Assembly (NCBI GenBank): GCA_947034885.2
Contig: OX344749.2
Location: forward strand, 24,381,501 to 24,445,500
DNA length: 64,000 nucleotides
Source of the DNA: Thuidium tamariscinum
Taxonomy: Eukaryota; Streptophyta; Bryopsida; Hypnales; Thuidiaceae
Direction: 5' to 3'
In this document: positions 22,697 through 42,323 of the stretch, in pieces
Position numbering within the stretch: the stretch's first letter is position 1
Layout: each line of letters opens with the position of its first letter
The notes under the pieces: generated by a model
The model's database searches: none
What the model saw: only the letters and a program-made list of their open reading frames with translations
Told to the model about the DNA's origin: nothing
Made by a program: the position numbers and the translations under genes

Positions 22697-24248
22697 CTAA
22701 TACCAAAGCCGATCACTTCCTAGCATTGCACTTGGCATCTCCATAGAGACCGGGAACAGCGGATCATGCACTCCAGGGTACAATTCTCCCCCCCAATCCT
22801 CCATGCTGTTCCCAGCAAACAAGCCGGAAGCCGGAGCAGCTGGCGGAAACCGCCAGTCTGGACTCAAAAAGCATTCATCACACCCGTCGTCGAAGGTTTG
22901 CCATGCGTCTGCAATTGGAAGATCACACATGATCGAATCGTTCGCCACCAGCATTCCAGCAAGGTCAGCAGTGTACGTGGACTGGCAAGGAGACGGAAGC
23001 TCACACAACGTGCTCCAGCTTGGATCGGTTTCATATTCGACTGCAGGCCCTGGCCCTGGCAGCGATGAGGCGGTGTCCGTGGAGGGAGACAGTGGAGAGG
23101 TGGCCGAGTCTTCTGAGAATTGAAGAACTGAAGAAGAGAACAAGCATTGGTCGGAGTTCGGAACGGTAATGTTGGGACTGGAGTTGGAGTTGGAGTTTGC
23201 CGTGAAGGTTTTGGTTGGGTGTCCGTTGGGAAAGCAGATGTACTTGGAGACCACTTGGGCAAGCGTCCCCGACCCATCGTCCTTGTTGAATAGCTTCGAT
23301 AGAGTAGGAAGCCTGATTTGCTCATCACTGAGGTGCATCGAGCCATCACCAGTCTCGGTTATGTTAGAATCAGTCGACACCGAGACCTCGCAATTGATCA
23401 CCTGCCAACGGAGCTCCACACTTGCGTTTGAGTATATCGTGCACAGTTTGAAGATCGATCGATCGGCACAGGCAAGGGGTCGGAATATCACACACATAGA
23501 AATGAGAATCGAACAAGCAACGCAACGAATTGAAGAGAAGAGAAGATCGAACGACCTTGGGAGGTGGTGCTTCTGCAACAGTACCACATGCAGCTGCTAC
23601 CTTGCACTGTACCCCAGCTCTTGAATACCTCTGAGCATCCGGCTTCGTGAGCTTCACAGCATCGTAAGAATTCGCGTCATGACGCAGCGGCAAGGGGTCA
23701 CTGACAGCGCTCGCCAACCTCTCCACACTCTCACACATATGTCGAAACGGCTCCCGCATCACAGCGTCCAACAGAGAGCCCGCCTCCAGTGTTGGGGACT
23801 TGGAATTCGCAGGGCTAGGATTGGAAGCCGCGAACGTCGTCACCACCGCCGTGTCCCAGCAGCTCAACAGCTGCTGCTTGTCTCCACCATCCCCATCGCC
23901 GTGCTCTTGAGCTTTCTTCTTCGTGAAGAAGCCTCCCCCTTGCTGCAATTGCGACATCGCCAGAGTGGACGACAGCAAACACGTCGTCTGCTGTGCCGGG
24001 TAGATGAAGTTGGTTTTGGCTTTCAGGCCTCGCATGGAGCGGGCCGCCAAGTCGTACGCCACGGCCGCTTGCTCCGCCGTGTCGAACGTCCCCAACCACC
24101 TTCGCTCGCGAGTGTGTGGATCCCGAATCTCCGCTGCAAACCGACCCCACGGACGCTGCCGCACGCCACGGTACTTGCCCTCCTGCACCGCTTTCTTCGT
24201 CTTCGTCCGCCTCGGATGCAGCAGAATGGTCTTCCCGTCCGCCACCAT
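22697..24248 (-). CDS. AP2/ERF transcription factor, group VIIIb-like (ESR/LEP/PUCHI-type); two exons
   Basis: This is a nuclear DNA-binding regulator of the plant ERF family. The start is the ATG at 24248, in good context (gcgATGG) with an in-frame TAG five codons upstream; a longer frame would need a TTG start. A basic RRTKTKK lies at residues 13-19. The AP2 domain spans about residues 25-83, with [10 protein letters not shown] (26-35), AAEIRD (38-43), WLG (51-53) and TNF (79-81). A38 and D43 occupy the ERF-type rather than DREB-type specificity positions. [13 protein letters not shown] and [17 protein letters not shown] are hallmarks I associate with group VIIIb meristem/organ-initiation factors. 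The long tail is Ser/Asn/Pro-rich, then acidic (FDDGCDE), ending SDRLWY, and is a plausible activation region. Exon 1 is 24248-23556 and exon 2 is 23401-22697, phase 0, giving 465 residues. An alternative donor at 23601/23600 gives 450 residues. The subgroup is fairly sure; the orthologue is not. Confidence 0.85.
23402..23555 (-). other. Inferred ERF intron (154 nt; 199 nt with the upstream donor)
   Basis: An intron is needed because the AP2 frame stops at 23370 while a second long open frame continues to 22697. The acceptor TTGGCAG/GTGATC at 23402 is clear. Two donors give phase 0: CCCAAG/GTCGTT (intron from 23555) and TGCAAG/GTAGCA (intron from 23600). The second has the more usual A at +3. 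Retention would yield a protein of about 292 residues that keeps the AP2 domain and loses the C-terminal region. Confidence 0.7.
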
Positions 24249-24950
24249 CGCTACCAACAGCTAAGCTAAGGACTAGCTCCCGACCATGAACTCGCTCCGG
24301 GGAGCTCGCGAAGGAGACGATCGATCAGCGGTTCGGTGAAAGACAAAAAGAGAGGGGACCTAGTTCAGCTTATGTCCAAAAGGTTTCAATAGACCTGGTG
24401 TGGCAGAATCTGAGCTAGCTGAACTGGGAAGATGCGAAAGGTGCACTGCTGCAGGTCGCTGTGCTTGAATTGCGGGAGTGCGTGACTGCAGGGCGCCATG
24501 CCAGGCAAATGATCGACGAGCTAAGAATAGCTTGCTGCAAGAGAGCCTGAGCTGAGGGAGTGTGGGACAGTTTACGAAAGGGGTGAGAGACGGAGGAATT
24601 GAATGGGGGTCCGAGCCGCAATTGTAAGAGGAAAGGGAGACGGGATGGGTTGGAGAGGGAAACACAGCAACTGCAAAGTGCGGGCTTGTACTGTACGAAA
24701 ATACCGTTCGTGGAATGGCGCTGGTAAGCTGGTTGGTATGTTCTGTGCTGCGACGAATGCCGCGCCCGGCGCTGGCAAGGGTTCAGTTATGCTGGGAGGC
24801 GGCGTGGCGCCACTCTGTCGTGGAAGGCCTGACTGCATCCGATTCGCTTGGGATCATTATGTTTGGAAGTCTGGCAGGGACCGACACTGGGCATTTAGTT
24901 AGTTGGGGAGATGTAAATGGACCAGTGGCAGAGCATCCCCTGCAGAGCCC
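24249..24950 (-). promoter_or_regulatory. 5' leader and proximal promoter region of the ERF gene
   Basis: This region is clearly richer in G and C than the surrounding DNA and lacks repeats. Open frames in it on both strands look like shadows of composition. No convincing TATA box was seen in the minus-strand direction, so I do not place a transcription start. MITE sequence begins immediately upstream. Confidence 0.4.
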
Positions 24951-37460: not shown

Positions 37461-37468
37461 GTAATGAC
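37461..37468. repeat. 8-bp target site duplication, left
   Basis: GTAATGAC immediately precedes CAGCGTTCTCAAAATAGG. The identical octamer follows the right terminus at 42316-42323. An 8-bp duplication is diagnostic for hAT insertion. Confidence 0.9.
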
Positions 37469-37924
37469 CAGCGTTCTCAAAATAGGTTTGGGGTAATTTG
37501 CCAGGTGGCTATGACCGTGAACATGGGGAGGGCTATTACCGCAATTTTGTAAATCCATGGTAGGAACAGCTTGCTCATTTTCCAAAAATAATGTAGAGTT
37601 CTGGATTTTTTTTTCACTTGGTAAAACCAGAGTTGCGATAAGGCATGATTTTTACTGTGACCTTCATTGCTATGATTGAACATTTCCAGTGGCTCCAATA
37701 GCTCAACACACAAAAAAGAATGTGAACATTTGCTATGGAACTTTCAAATTGGCACAAGAATGCTCATTTCATTTAAATGTGAAGGAATGCAATCAAAAAC
37801 ATCAAGATTCAAGAGTATAAATTCACACATTACAAATGAAAGCTTCAAGCCAAACATTCCAAACTAAAGACCTAAATTGAAATTGCAAAGTAAAAACTGA
37901 ATTGTAAACAACAAATTAGAAACA

Positions 37925-37986
37925 CACTAACTAGGGATTTGAACCCTACTTGCAATAAGCAAGACTGCCCATTTGCAGTGTTAGTG
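37925..37986 (-). ncRNA. Perfect 62-nt cloverleaf with a tRNA-type T-loop (tRNA-like structure)
   Basis: Read on the minus strand, an outer 7-bp stem (CACTAAC/GTTAGTG) encloses three 5-bp stems with no unpaired junction bases. These are ACTGC/GCAGT with loop AAATGG, CTTGC/GCAAG with loop TTATT, and TAGGG/CCCTA with loop TTCAAAT. The last loop fits the T-loop consensus TTCRANY, and GGTTCAAATCC fits a pol III B box. Linker bases, variable loop and a 7-nt anticodon loop are missing, so it is not a standard tRNA. It lies about 425 nt beyond the transposase stop on the same strand. Whether it is transcribed is unknown. Confidence 0.55.
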
Positions 37987-38069
37987 GGACCTGTATAGAA
38001 GACAAACAAACAACAAGTTAGAATAAAAAATAAAACAAGTTGCCAAAAGGCAACAACTCCCTGTTTTTC

Positions 38070-38200
38070 CTCCCAGGCTTCGGTGATGGATCCCGATTCC
38101 TCCAGACTCCCAAGCTTCGTTGACCTTCCAGACTCCCAGGCTTCGATGACTGCACAAACTCCCGTCCCAACTTCCAACTCCCAAGCTCAAGCTCCACTAA
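38070..38200. repeat. Subterminal short repeats, CTCCCAGGCTTCG type
   Basis: At least three near-identical units, CTCCCAGGCTTCGGTGA, CTCCCAAGCTTCGTTGA and CTCCCAGGCTTCGATGA, are spaced about 26-36 bp apart. Further CTCCCAAGCTC and CTCCCACAC relatives follow toward 38255. Subterminal repeats in hAT elements often serve as transposase-binding sites; that role here is inference. Confidence 0.6.
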
Positions 38201-38410
38201 TGCAGCTCTGACTCATGCTGTCCTACACTTCAGGGACGCTCTCCAACTCCCACACTCCAGCTTGAAAAAGCATGTAATAAAACATCTTGACACGGATGTT
38301 CAGTTGTTCACCACTAAGGAAACTGTTGCCATTTGAGATTAAAAAAACAAGCAAAATCTCATGAAAACTAAGGGCTATGGATAGAGGAGGATACTCAAAG
38401 TCATGGCGCT

Positions 38411-41330
38411 TCACATATCACCATGTTGACCACCTTTAACCGCATTTCTCCAAGAATCTATAGCCTCCTTGTAGGAAAAAGTCTGTAATGTATAGAACTT
38501 CTGTCCAAACATACGGACAACAAGCGGCAAGTGCTTGCCCAAGCGATTACGGTGACAAGACTTGAGGAATTTCAAGGTGCTGAAACACCTTTCATCTTCC
38601 ATCAACCCCAAGACCATACAGCAGCCAATCTCAGCCACCTTGAAGTATTCGGAGATCAAGCTCCCCAAGTGCCGTGACTGAGAAAGATTTCTCCACAATT
38701 TGATCATTGGATTTACATCAAAGGGCGGTGCAAGTGCAGCATCAGCATTAGACTTCATAATAACCTTGAACAAACTCTGTTGGTTGTCAAGCTTGGCAGC
38801 AGATAGCATTTCAAGGGCAGTATAAGGCTTGCCCTCATCCACATTTGGACTCCATGCATTCATGAGTTTTGCATGGCAATAGAACTTCTTTAGCACTGAT
38901 AAGTGCTGGGGAAAACTTGCATCTGCCCCCTCTTGTTTCTAGTATTGAGGGTAAATGATGCCAAAAGCATCAAGTAGTTCTTGTTGAGGAAATCATTTAT
39001 CAAGCTCATCACAAAGAGACTGAGCAATCTCTGCATTTTGAACAAATCAACAGAGAATGAGAAAGTTGCAAGATTGCAATAGAACATGAAGAATAGGACC
39101 AAAAAAAAAAAAAAAAAAAATTGGGAGATGAGTTCTCCACAGCATGGCACTTGCGGTTTCAGACGGCAGATCACAATCAGCTAGTTGAAGAACAGCTGAA
39201 GAACAAACATCAAAAAAAATTTGAAATCCAAGTTCTCACTACTAATTGACTTCAATGATACAAAAGAAGATACACAAAGCCAAATGATATGCAAATGAAA
39301 CAAATGAGCCAAGTAAAACTGATCATGGGACAAGTTACACAAAAAAATTGCAAATGACACTAATGAGCCAAGTCTAACTAATCATGAGACAAGTGAGACA
39401 AAAAAATATGCAATGAAACAAGGCAAAGCAATTGCTTACCAGCAAACTACTACTGTACCGTGTCTTGGCAGCGGTTGAACTCTTCGGGAGTCACAAAAAC
39501 TTCAGCTCCCGTAAACTTGTCTTTGCAACGGGCAAAAACAGTCGTGATCTTCAAATTGAAGATGAGGTGGTAAACTCCACTACCACCATCCAGGTCTCTC
39601 CATTCTAGAGGAACATTGACACTTTTCAATTGCACAATGTCGTTGTATTGAGCAAACTCCACTGTACTGTATAAAGTGGATGGATCAATGAACATTCTTG
39701 CCAATTCATTTCGACAAATCTTGATGGCTTGCATGAAGTCACACACAAAGATGTCCCGTGCTTGGCTCAACTTTATCAAACAGTGAACCGCATTCAGCAT
39801 CGGGATGAACAAGGCCAGAGACAGCAGGATATCAACGTCTACAAGGAAATCAAAGTTCCCTACAGCAGCCGCGGTGGATTTCTGCCCATTGGAGGCATCG
39901 ACCCCCATCTTCACCAACAACGTGGTATATTCACTCATCACTTGCTGGGCTGGACTTCTCATAGAAATCTAGCGAGTTTCAACATTCCTCACCATTTTCT
40001 GGGCCTTAGTTTCTATGAGATCTGCTAGTTTCTGAAGCTCAGAGTAACGCTTGTGATTGCGGAAAAAGTAGGTATAGACGAACTGAAACAGTTCCTCCAA
40101 TCGATTTATCATGGGGTAATTGGATAGAGTCTCCACCACCAAGTTAATGCAGTGACTAGCACAGCTAGCACCAACTAAAAAAGGGCCCCACTTTTGCCGA
40201 ATTTGGGCAGTGACCCCGTTTTTGTGTCCCTGGAAGGTAGACACACCGTCGGCCCCGAAACAGACTAGCTTCGACGCTATGGACTCACGGCTCAACCCTC
40301 CCTCCCCCAACAAAGAGTACATAATTGTACTTGTCAAGTGATCTGCACTACCATCGGCAACACAAGACAAATGAAGAAGATGAGGAACCCTCTCCCAATC
40401 ATCCATCACATAAACGTGCACCCCCAGCCAGGAAGTGTTATCTACAGTGGTAACTTCGTCTGCACTGATCGAGACTACATGAGCAAATTGCACAACAGCC
40501 TTGAGAGCCGACAAAACACTAGCATGCACATATTCACTCATTTCCCACCCACTGTTCTCACACCAAAGTTTGGTTGGTAAATTTTTCACCTTGAGGTGCT
40601 TCAAGAGATATTGCTCCCGCTTATAATCACACATCGGATGTTCATGACTCAAAACTTGGAAAAGGGTAGAAAATTGCACTCCCTTGCGTTTTAGCTCGCC
40701 CTGCAAGCCACCGACCAGTTGATCCGCAATAGTCCCACGCGATCGACCAGCCCAAGCCTTACAGAATTGGAAGTGCTTGCAGTCCAATTTGATGAAGGTT
40801 TCACCCTTCTTAAGGTGTGGGAAAAGCACCCCATCCTCCATGCACGTTCTCTTACCTTCATGCTTTTTCAAATTGTCTCCTTTAGGAACGATGACCTTCC
40901 GCCTCCCGCTCATTGTGCTGCAGCTTTGGCACACGACTCCCTTCAGATCACCATTTGAATCAAATTTGCCTTCAGCCTAGGTGAACCTCGCCGCCCACAC
41001 AGCCTGCCACCTCCGAGTAATTGTACTCGGCATTATTTTCTTTCGCTTTGGCGCACACAAAGCAACATCGACCGCAGCGCCTCGTTTTTTTTCCCTCCGC
41101 GCCTCATTGTGATTTTATTTCCAGGGAGGAGATATCACGGTGCATTCAGATGGGCTCTGGAATTGCACCGGGACAGACAACGAATCAGGAAGGCGGGTCT
41201 CCGAAACATGAGTCACGTCATTGTCAACAATCTCCATTTCGGCCATGAGAGCACCAACACCTCGGCTGTTGCGACTCGAAAAGAAGGTCTTCACGTGGAA
41301 GTTGTCCGGTAGTTTTAAGCGAGGCGCCAT
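38411..41330 (-). pseudogene. hAT transposase, multi-exon, five in-frame stops
   Basis: Exons by eye: 41330-41115 (71 codons, weakly joined), 40976-39440, 39195-39151 and 39030-38411. The last three introns fit in phase, with donor GCTG/GTAAGC at 39440 and acceptor TTCTTCAG at 39195. In order the protein shows a CxxC...HxxxxxC zinc finger (CQSC...HEGKRTC), the first catalytic aspartate in SISADE, the second in CFGADG, the hAT CxxH in CASHC, a broken TRW motif, and the dimerisation region EDERCFSTLKFLKS...RNRL. It resembles the KIAA1586/DUF4371-like hAT branch. The stops are TAG at 39969, 39450 and 39447, TGA at 38993 and TAG at 38939 (lowest coordinates). The reading frame is otherwise preserved, with no frameshift needed, so decay is by point mutation. 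Confidence 0.85.
39101..39120. repeat. Homopolymer of 20 A (T on the transposase strand)
   Basis: This run lies in the inferred intron 39150-39031 of the transposase, where it forms part of a pyrimidine-rich tract before the acceptor at 39031. It is prone to length change and to sequencing error. Confidence 0.8.
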
Positions 41331-42315
41331 TGCAGCAAGTCCTGCAGCCAAAGATCCAAACTCCAAACCCCCCCCCCCCCTACACACCACCACAAAACCC
41401 AGAAGGCTAGAACTTTGCAGCAAGTAAAAGTTTAAGGCAAAGCAGCAAAAGCACAAAGCCAAACAATTGATTGAAGCAATGACAAGCTGAGAAACTGAGA
41501 ATACGATGCAAATCACCATGGAACAACCGATTTTTAAACACGAAGAATGTCGACAATCGTCTCCATCGCCTTCGTCCACATAATTCCATGAAGCCTCCAT
41601 TTTTACAATGCGGTCATTGCTGTGAATGCAAGGACGCAAGAATCCCATTCCTCAAACTTCAAAGCACATACAATTGGCGGCTTTGGTGCTCGCAATTGCA
41701 AACGCCGGCGCACCTAGTCGCCAACTTCTGTAGTTCAAACCAGGAATCCATGCCACAGTTTTGGAATCTGGAGTTTGGCCAAGACAGACTCTCAATTCCT
41801 TTCATTTCACAATGATGGCAAATTATGAAGCTCAGAAGCAGAAACTACAGAAGGCAGTGGGTGCACCAATGTCTACGTTCCAGAAACAACACAGCCACAA
41901 AGGAGATCAGCAAAGGCAACCGATTGTAGGGGAAACCTAAAAAAATTGGCTACAGAATGCGCGCGCTCAGAAAACTCCTGCGAAAAAATGCAACGGAAGG
42001 AGATGAAATGGCTACAGTGATCAGGGTTCTGCAAAACCCTGGCTTCAACCTTTGAGCTAAATGGACGGCTAGGATGTCGCCGCTGTGGCAAGAGATCCAA
42101 CGGCCCAGGAGTGGCCGTGCTCCCACGTCACACCCGTCGTAGTGGATGACTGCGAACTGAATTTCGGATGAAAAGGAGTATCTGCGACGGTTTGTGAATG
42201 ACATTCATGAAATCGCTCAAATGTACAGATTTTGCAAATTTTCTCGCATGTACAGGTAGTGCAAGAAATTTTTTGGTAGAATTCAAGCGAATTTTAGCCA
42301 ATTATGCAAACGCTG

Positions 42316-42323
42316 GTAATGAC
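42316..42323. repeat. 8-bp target site duplication, right
   Basis: GTAATGAC follows the right hAT terminus AACGCTG directly and is identical to the left copy. Confidence 0.9.

Follow-up and report, generated by a model that had tools for sequence, protein, structure and literature searches.

Structures that imitate tRNAs have been described from two long non-coding RNAs of vertebrates and from the RNAs of plant viruses, where they occupy the 3' end. Canonical tRNAs are built with linkers at positions 8-9 and 26, a variable loop, and an anticodon loop of 7 nt. As set out in the pertinent part of PMC11693755, mascRNA and menRNA lack the eight tRNA linkers, and their L shape is held by the GG of the D loop together with the T loop. 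A portion of PMC7881203 reports that wild-type PRORP2 cuts a viral tRNA-like structure in vitro and that PRORPs are both nuclear and organellar. The tRNA-like structure (TLS) described here comprises 62 nt and lies in a window of 64,000 nt from Thuidium tamariscinum (contig OX344749.2, positions 24,381,501 to 24,445,500).

A tRNA-like fold in a hAT-type element

Folding of positions 37925-37986 gave a cloverleaf from both strands, with a closing stem of 7 bp and three stems of 5 bp, no mismatches, and no junction bases. The minimum free energies were -22.9 for the plus strand and -24.0 for the minus strand (z scores of -4.6 and -4.5), and none of 200 dinucleotide shuffles was equally stable. 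On the minus strand, which is that of the transposase, the cloverleaf reads GGTTCAAATCC and displays the 7-nt loop TTCAAAT. In this orientation the 5' end of the TLS is at 37986 and the 3' end at 37925; the feature was defined by folds, covariation, and constraint. The 5' strand of the acceptor stem (CACTAAC, 37980-37986) is followed by a D arm with GG at the end of its loop (ACTGC-AAATGG-GCAGT, 37964-37979), an anticodon-like arm (CTTGC-TTATT-GCAAG, 37949-37963), a T arm (TAGGG-TTCAAAT-CCCTA, 37932-37948) that holds the B-box-like GGTTCAAATCC, and the 3' strand of the acceptor stem (GTTAGTG, 37925-37931). In addition to the fold, the acceptor stem was delimited by covariation, the T arm by its copies, and the other two arms by the copies retrieved with the second search pattern described below.

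The element that carries the TLS measures 4,847 bp (37469-42315, minus strand), has terminal inverted repeats (TIRs) of the form CAGCGTT...AACGCTG, and is bordered by an 8-bp target-site duplication (TSD), GTAATGAC, identified by a TSD scan at 37461-37468 (left) and 42316-42323 (right) on the plus strand. The last open stretch of its transposase encodes 175 amino acids (38411-38938, minus strand) and ends in a stop codon at 38411-38413. Upstream open stretches on the same strand, within 39450-41651, were delineated by open reading frames and by tblastx to diverged copies (39450-39968 and 39969-40976, with 41115-41651 less certain). The TLS is situated on the transposase strand in the 3' UTR, 424 nt past the stop codon, or 427 nt when the stop codon is counted. 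Exact 8-bp TSDs at CAGCGTT/AACGCTG-type ends were detected in 10 of 27 scanned sources including the window, namely in 10 of the 21 with long flanks and in none of the six 6-kb pieces, and each duplication was different. Three sources had pairs at other sites only, which were taken as chance. The profile for hAT C-terminal dimerization (PF05699) matched the last exon of the related locus L104 with an E value of 0.069 and 13.4 bits against a cut-off of 21.4; it did not match the 736-amino acid stretch of L104, and five pieces of the window gave no match at an E value of 0.01. Because Pfam support is weak, the assignment to hAT rests mainly on the TIRs and the 8-bp TSD. Elsewhere in the window, a gene piece on the minus strand (23370-24260) contains an AP2 domain (E value of 3.3e-13); among solved structures it comes closest to ERF transcription factors of plants, with Arabidopsis-type ones matching best (5wx9, E value of 2.6e-21).

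The initial annotation had described a gap-free, mismatch-free cloverleaf of 62 bases, a TTCAAAT loop of 7 nt on the transposase strand, and a location in the 3' part of a hAT transposon. All three statements held, the first upon folding of both strands, the second on reading the minus strand, and the third through the TIRs, the 8-bp TSD, and the placement of the TLS 3' of the transposase. That the structure is not a normal tRNA was likewise confirmed, as ARAGORN predicted no tRNA gene in the window and no Rfam family was matched at gathering score. The structure departs from a canonical tRNA: junction linkers are absent from the window copy and from the consensus fold of 33 copies, and the anticodon-like loop of the window copy has 5 nt. 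Among 18 loci submitted to ARAGORN, two that cover one and the same place received a 97-nt tRNA-Val call over the TLS.

Fourteen loci chosen for variety were scanned against Rfam, and ten of them yielded no match over the TLS at an E value of 10. End-to-end alignments with the mascRNA-menRNA model were obtained for L056 (23.6 bits, E value of 0.18) and L058 (21.2 bits, E value of 0.8); the gathering score of 42.5 bits was reached by none of the 14 loci. L037 aligned end to end with the Tymovirus TLS model (19.8 bits, E value of 0.76), and L071 aligned end to end with the tRNA-Sec model, both below threshold. RF00005 (tRNA) did not appear in the Rfam scan listings, where the tRNA-Sec match of L071, which belongs to the same clan, could hide it. 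The window copy matched the mascRNA model in the T arm only (13.5 bits, E value of 3.7).

Copies of the structure and selection on its fold

Searching the whole genome at the DNA level yielded 120 candidates and 40 matches with a score, the window's own match included. Twenty of the loci were taken as 10-kb pieces and 19 as 401-bp pieces, six of which were taken again as 6-kb pieces. All 20 ten-kb loci aligned to the window element on both sides of the TLS, all six 6-kb loci shared the transposase part in blastn at lower identity, and L104 shared it by tblastx. The transposase end was located in 16 elements; in each of them it shares the strand of the TLS and precedes it. A first pattern, representing the TLS core, matched the genome 78 times and added 50 new loci; a second pattern, which left open the D and anticodon stems as well as positions 57 and 59 of the T loop, matched 86 times. 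Read backwards, the two patterns gave 0 and 5 matches, respectively, which puts a chance origin far off. Of the 86 matches, 83 were kept and three with fewer than 15 pairs were dropped; one kept copy, at C8:16239879 with 15 pairs, looks like chance. Both patterns united gave 115 TLS places in the genome, one of them probably due to chance.

A covariance model built from 33 copies was applied to 305 kb, made up of the window and 27 long loci, and found one match of at least 75 bits in each of the 28. This result is not independent, since the presence of a TLS was the reason for choosing all of these loci, and every copy but that of L104 was either part of the model or identical to a model copy. 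L010 additionally contained a degraded second copy (45.5 bits) near another hAT C-terminal piece. As far as the sequences seen at length indicate, the TLS copies lie in elements of this lineage (28 of 28, all picked for the TLS), a statement that concerns the copies and does not extend to every element of the lineage. Thirteen identical TLS copies with near-identical flanks make up a young subfamily (L058, L059, L061, L062, L063, L065, L069, L084, L085, L088, L089, L095, and L103). L104, a 4.7-kb piece covering the L084 locus, contains transposase frames that are open over 736 and 234 amino acids and retains the fold with the acceptor CACTGGC/GCCAGTG, as in the 13 identical copies. The young subfamily and the open frames of L104 suggest recent activity.

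In 60 distinct copies, 97.4% of the pair cells were paired. Changes on both sides had occurred in 9 of the 22 pairs and in 58 cells; neither these values nor the paired share was attained in any of 500 shuffles. The covariation score of 0.164, compared with 0.086, was likewise reached by none of 500 shuffles, and the number of pair types (22) was reached by 12. The shuffles ignore the relatedness of the copies, which is retained in controls with the partner slid by 1-3 columns; in these, 32.5-55.4% of the cells were paired for the 60 copies, and 30.5-55.4% when both copy sets are taken together. The set of 33 distinct copies also showed 97.4% paired cells, and its 17 cells with two-sided change as well as its covariation score beat all 500 shuffles; its four pairs with two-sided change were reached by 69 shuffles and its 14 pair types by 51. 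The smaller set excluded the second, 69-nt copy of L010, and the larger set, like the G.U/A.C count below, excluded that copy and L034, which has a 1-nt deletion in the T stem.

Most compensated pairs reside in the acceptor stem, in which six of the seven pairs were changed on both sides among the 60 copies. Its two strands differ in step between copies, as in CACTAAC/GTTAGTG, CACTGGC/GCCAGTG, CATCAAT/ATTGATG, CACCAAC/GTTGGTG, and CACAAAC/GTTTGTG. The first pair of the T stem was A-U in 31 and U-A in 26 of the 60 copies. Twenty-eight of these copies had been obtained with the first pattern, which left the acceptor stem free and fixed the letters of the 3' strand of the D stem, of the anticodon stem, and of much of the T arm; the invariance of these parts in the copies concerned is a consequence of that choice. 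Of the 83 copies from the second pattern, 60 had a D stem with all five pairs formed, and 67 had an anticodon stem with all five. Nine TLS sequences were each present at more than one place; their cells were all Watson-Crick pairs, apart from acceptor pair 7, with two cases of U.G, and T pair 1, with two cases of T.T. A number of single-copy changes run from CAG to CAA before the TLS or from CTGC to CTAC in the D stem, as might be expected if methylated CHG sites decay in copies that are silenced.

The loop letters were kept as well. TTCAANT was present in the T loop of all 33 distinct copies found by similarity. In the copies from the second pattern, in which positions 57 and 59 were open and GG was not asked for, T-loop position 57 was A in 81 of 83, position 59 was C in 45, T in 18, A in 18, and G in 2, and the D loop ended in GG in 76 of 83. 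The anticodon-like loop measured 4-7 nt in 80 of 83 copies, and the D loop was also variable in length. A protein-coding exon across the TLS, as might be read from an open frame at 37872-38186, was rejected because one copy may differ from another by a single base in the length of the D or anticodon-like loop, which would shift the frame.

Constraint was quantified in 8 of the 28 elements, those with the hATC end in register, two of which have one in-frame stop; L020 and L023 were left out, as their last stretch is broken in register. Mean pairwise identity was 87.0% for the TLS and 70.5% for a 213-nt hATC stretch, and identity of the TLS exceeded that of hATC in 28 of 28 element pairs. At the first, second, and third codon positions hATC identity amounted to 81.1, 87.4, and 42.9%, so that the TLS is kept about as strictly as second codon positions of this part of the transposase. 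The 45 nt upstream of the TLS were 57.8% identical, and the flanks beyond were 28.5 and 27.9% identical. Across nine elements, 251-445 nt separate the last sense codon from the TLS.

The initial annotation had named copies without the pairing and without compensatory changes as a sign of coincidence; the opposite was found, the pairing being kept and compensatory changes being present. Judged by the sequences compared, the cloverleaf is real and bears marks of selection as an RNA structure. The pattern of identity indicates that purifying selection acts on the pairing and on the loop letters, and selection on a tRNA-like fold in the 3' UTR of the transposase strand is very likely.

Surroundings of the TLS and its probable role

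On the minus strand, the TLS is preceded by a stretch (37991-38021) in which CTAAC (38017-38021) is followed by a T-rich tract and CAG (37991-37993), with GTCC between CAG and the TLS. CTAAY occurred 15-60 nt upstream of the TLS in 69 of 71 distinct contexts (shuffled mean of 3.7). In 56 of the 71, YAG was found within the last 8 nt, at a distance of 2-4 nt from the TLS (shuffled mean of 10.1), the other 15 being without YAG, and the tract directly upstream consisted of 51% T and 12% A. With its resemblance to a branch point followed by a pyrimidine tract and a U2-type 3' splice site, the stretch is regarded as a putative splice acceptor. Triple helices of the MALAT1 type are formed upstream by U-rich motifs and an A-rich tract. 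The sequence directly upstream of the TLS, T-rich and A-poor as it is, offers no A-rich tract for such a helix. Pairing of the upstream CTAAC with the 3' strand of the acceptor stem was rejected, because CTAAC stays when the acceptor becomes CACTGGC.

Two further motifs are conserved in the 3' UTR on the minus strand. M1, GTATCCTC (RTATCC; 38387-38394), occurred in 11 of 11 elements given, RTATCC(T) lying 14-42 nt past the last sense codon, and was absent from the degraded L028. RTATCC(T) equals the 5' splice site of U12-type introns, but no clear 3' partner of that type was seen. M2, CCTTAGTTTTCATGAG (38358-38373), had its core in 11 of 11 elements given and is near-invariant within an otherwise poorly alignable 3' UTR. 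The span from M1 to M2 is about 36-79 nt in the 11 elements, which is probably too short for a complete U12-type intron. A hairpin at M2 was unsupported (RNAalifold on 11 elements, -0.9 kcal/mol). Short imperfect repeats of the type CTCCCAGGCTTCGATGA occupy 38070-38152, between the stop codon and the TLS. Downstream of the TLS, about 115 bp (37810-37924) differ between two groups of close copies. The TLS and the element end run on in both groups, so sequence was replaced as far as the border of the TLS.

At a probability of roughly 0.57, we favor the reading that the TLS directs RNase P/Z processing of hAT transcripts in the manner of mascRNA. The 3' UTR of the transposase transcript would hold the TLS as two helices, one made of acceptor and T arm and the other of D and anticodon arm, and a tRNA elbow would join them through contact of the D-loop GG with the T loop, as the kept letters suggest. 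The nuclear RNase P of the host, presumably the protein-only PRORP of land plants, would recognize elbow and acceptor and cut at 37986/37987 on the transposase strand; RNase Z would cut near 37925. A small tRNA-like RNA would thereby be freed, and the transposase transcript would be left with a non-polyadenylated 3' end, as is the case for MALAT1 and mascRNA. With the end of the splice-acceptor-like sequence 2-4 nt away on the upstream side, cleavage may be in competition with splicing or polyadenylation and may thereby determine how much transposase mRNA is made, or in which form.

In the main assays contained in the part of PMC5039416 considered here, G18, C56, R57, and A58 matter for cleavage by PRORP, any base serves at position 59, the anticodon arm is dispensable, and an A at position -1 helps. 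A table in the same part shows that changes of G19 hardly matter, nor do C56U and A57C in another substrate with PRORP3. Position -1 of the TLS was A in 41 of 76 distinct contexts. Kept and free letters of the TLS thus appear largely to match the needs of plant RNase P, to the degree that these excerpts state them. It may be the fold rather than RNase P that is served by the second G and by parts of the T loop, since changes of G19, and with one substrate C56U and A57C, hardly matter in those data. The initial annotation had offered three roles, namely a processing signal for RNase P/Z, a captured and trimmed tRNA, and a DNA cruciform. The first is the best supported owing to the linker-free mascRNA architecture, the end-to-end Rfam alignments (2 of 14), and letters that largely fit the PRORP requirements; a captured tRNA is possible as an origin, and the cruciform is disfavored.

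The TLS might instead work in the intact mRNA in the manner of viral tRNA-like ends, binding an elongation factor, export or transport factors, or a synthetase and so helping translation, stability, or movement. Selection at the RNA level on a tRNA-like fold would suit such a role, as would the weak Tymovirus match of L037. The splice-acceptor-like stretch adjoins the TLS in most copies and could, after splicing, bring it close behind the stop codon, and some transcripts could pass the TLS to a poly(A) site, given that 29 of 90 copies have AATAAA in the 60 nt that follow it. Ordinary charging is unlikely, however, because CCA does not directly follow the acceptor in the copies listed and the anticodon-like loop is variable; moreover, the elbow fold would be expected to meet nuclear RNase P. 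We consider a function in intact mRNA unlikely on balance.

Less probable still is an element acting at the DNA level, whose B box would recruit TFIIIC and give rise to a small pol III transcript or an anti-silencing chromatin boundary. Type 2 promoters of pol III comprise an A box, a B box, and a T-run terminator. The consensus-like B box GGTTCAANTCC was kept in 30 of the 33 distinct copies found by similarity, but its function cannot explain the compensatory changes in six of seven acceptor pairs. By eye, the A box is poor and only partial against the consensus, and no more than 32 of 90 copies have TTTT in the 20 nt that follow.

A DNA cruciform with a part in transposition, such as a structure near the 3' end bound by the transposase or a host factor, would account for perfect pairing on both DNA strands and would lead one to expect compensatory change equally. 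G.U and A.C pairs among the variants numbered 31 and 23 (p of 0.34; 18 and 6 in the acceptor stem), which did not significantly mark one strand as RNA and favors neither. A cruciform has no need, however, for kept D-loop letters or for the kept T-loop letters typical of tRNAs, of which only position 59 is free; the varying distance of the TLS from the last sense codon and flanks at background identity between subfamilies also speak against it, and we hold it to be quite improbable. A once-captured, trimmed tRNA gene carried as neutral cargo is hardly credible, for although the letters of the T arm and loop are tRNA-typical, such cargo would diverge like the flanks (28%) and not stay at 87% with compensatory changes, so that tRNA capture is possible only as the origin of the TLS.

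Returning to the processing element, an extended proposal, which we put forward tentatively and at somewhat less than even odds, is that a plant hAT lineage independently evolved a mascRNA-like module. Within it, a selected tRNA mimic would be coupled to a splice acceptor in the 3' UTR, and host RNase P/Z would make a poly(A)-free end of the transposase mRNA and a small tRNA-like RNA derived from the transposon. The module might act as a switch between splicing and cutting and in this way control the output of transposase. If the TLS is an RNase P signal, it would be a novel means by which a DNA transposon forms or restricts its mRNA. The 60 distinct natural variants in hand lend themselves to structure-function tests.

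Comparison with described systems

With the hAT superfamily (Ac, Hermes, Tol2, and others) the element has in common an 8-bp TSD, CAGCG-type TIRs, and a weak match to the hAT dimerization profile, and what it adds is a tRNA-like structure under selection in the 3' UTR. A published example of a tRNA-like structure joined with hAT elements was not found among the papers listed in searches of open-licence PMC literature. The TLS of plant viruses (Tymovirus type, RF00233) likewise are tRNA mimics on the 3' side of an RNA, and L037 resembles them weakly; unlike them, the structure described here is a full cloverleaf, belongs to a DNA transposon rather than an RNA virus, and has no visible CCA end. 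The TLS of Arabidopsis mitochondrial nad6 and orf291, which are cut by PRORP1 according to the part of PMC5039416 drawn upon, exemplify tRNA-like RNase P signals in non-tRNA transcripts; they are organellar, and the likeness noted here is one of fold and use.

The closest counterparts are mascRNA and menRNA (RF01684), which derive from the vertebrate MALAT1 and MEN beta RNAs. Common to both sides are the 7-bp acceptor stem, the linker-free four-way junction, GG in a short D loop, a compact anticodon-like arm, and a T arm of 5+7+5 with UUCAA. Both are placed downstream in a longer RNA, which for the TLS is deduced from its position relative to the transposase. In contrast to mascRNA and menRNA, the TLS resides in a plant DNA transposon, has a D stem of 5 bp (3 bp in the Rfam model), stays below the Rfam threshold, and is assigned a processing route on grounds of sequence; the likeness does not imply common descent. 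If the TLS is an RNase P signal, plant RNase P would have in it a nuclear target other than tRNA, and mascRNA would have a convergent twin.
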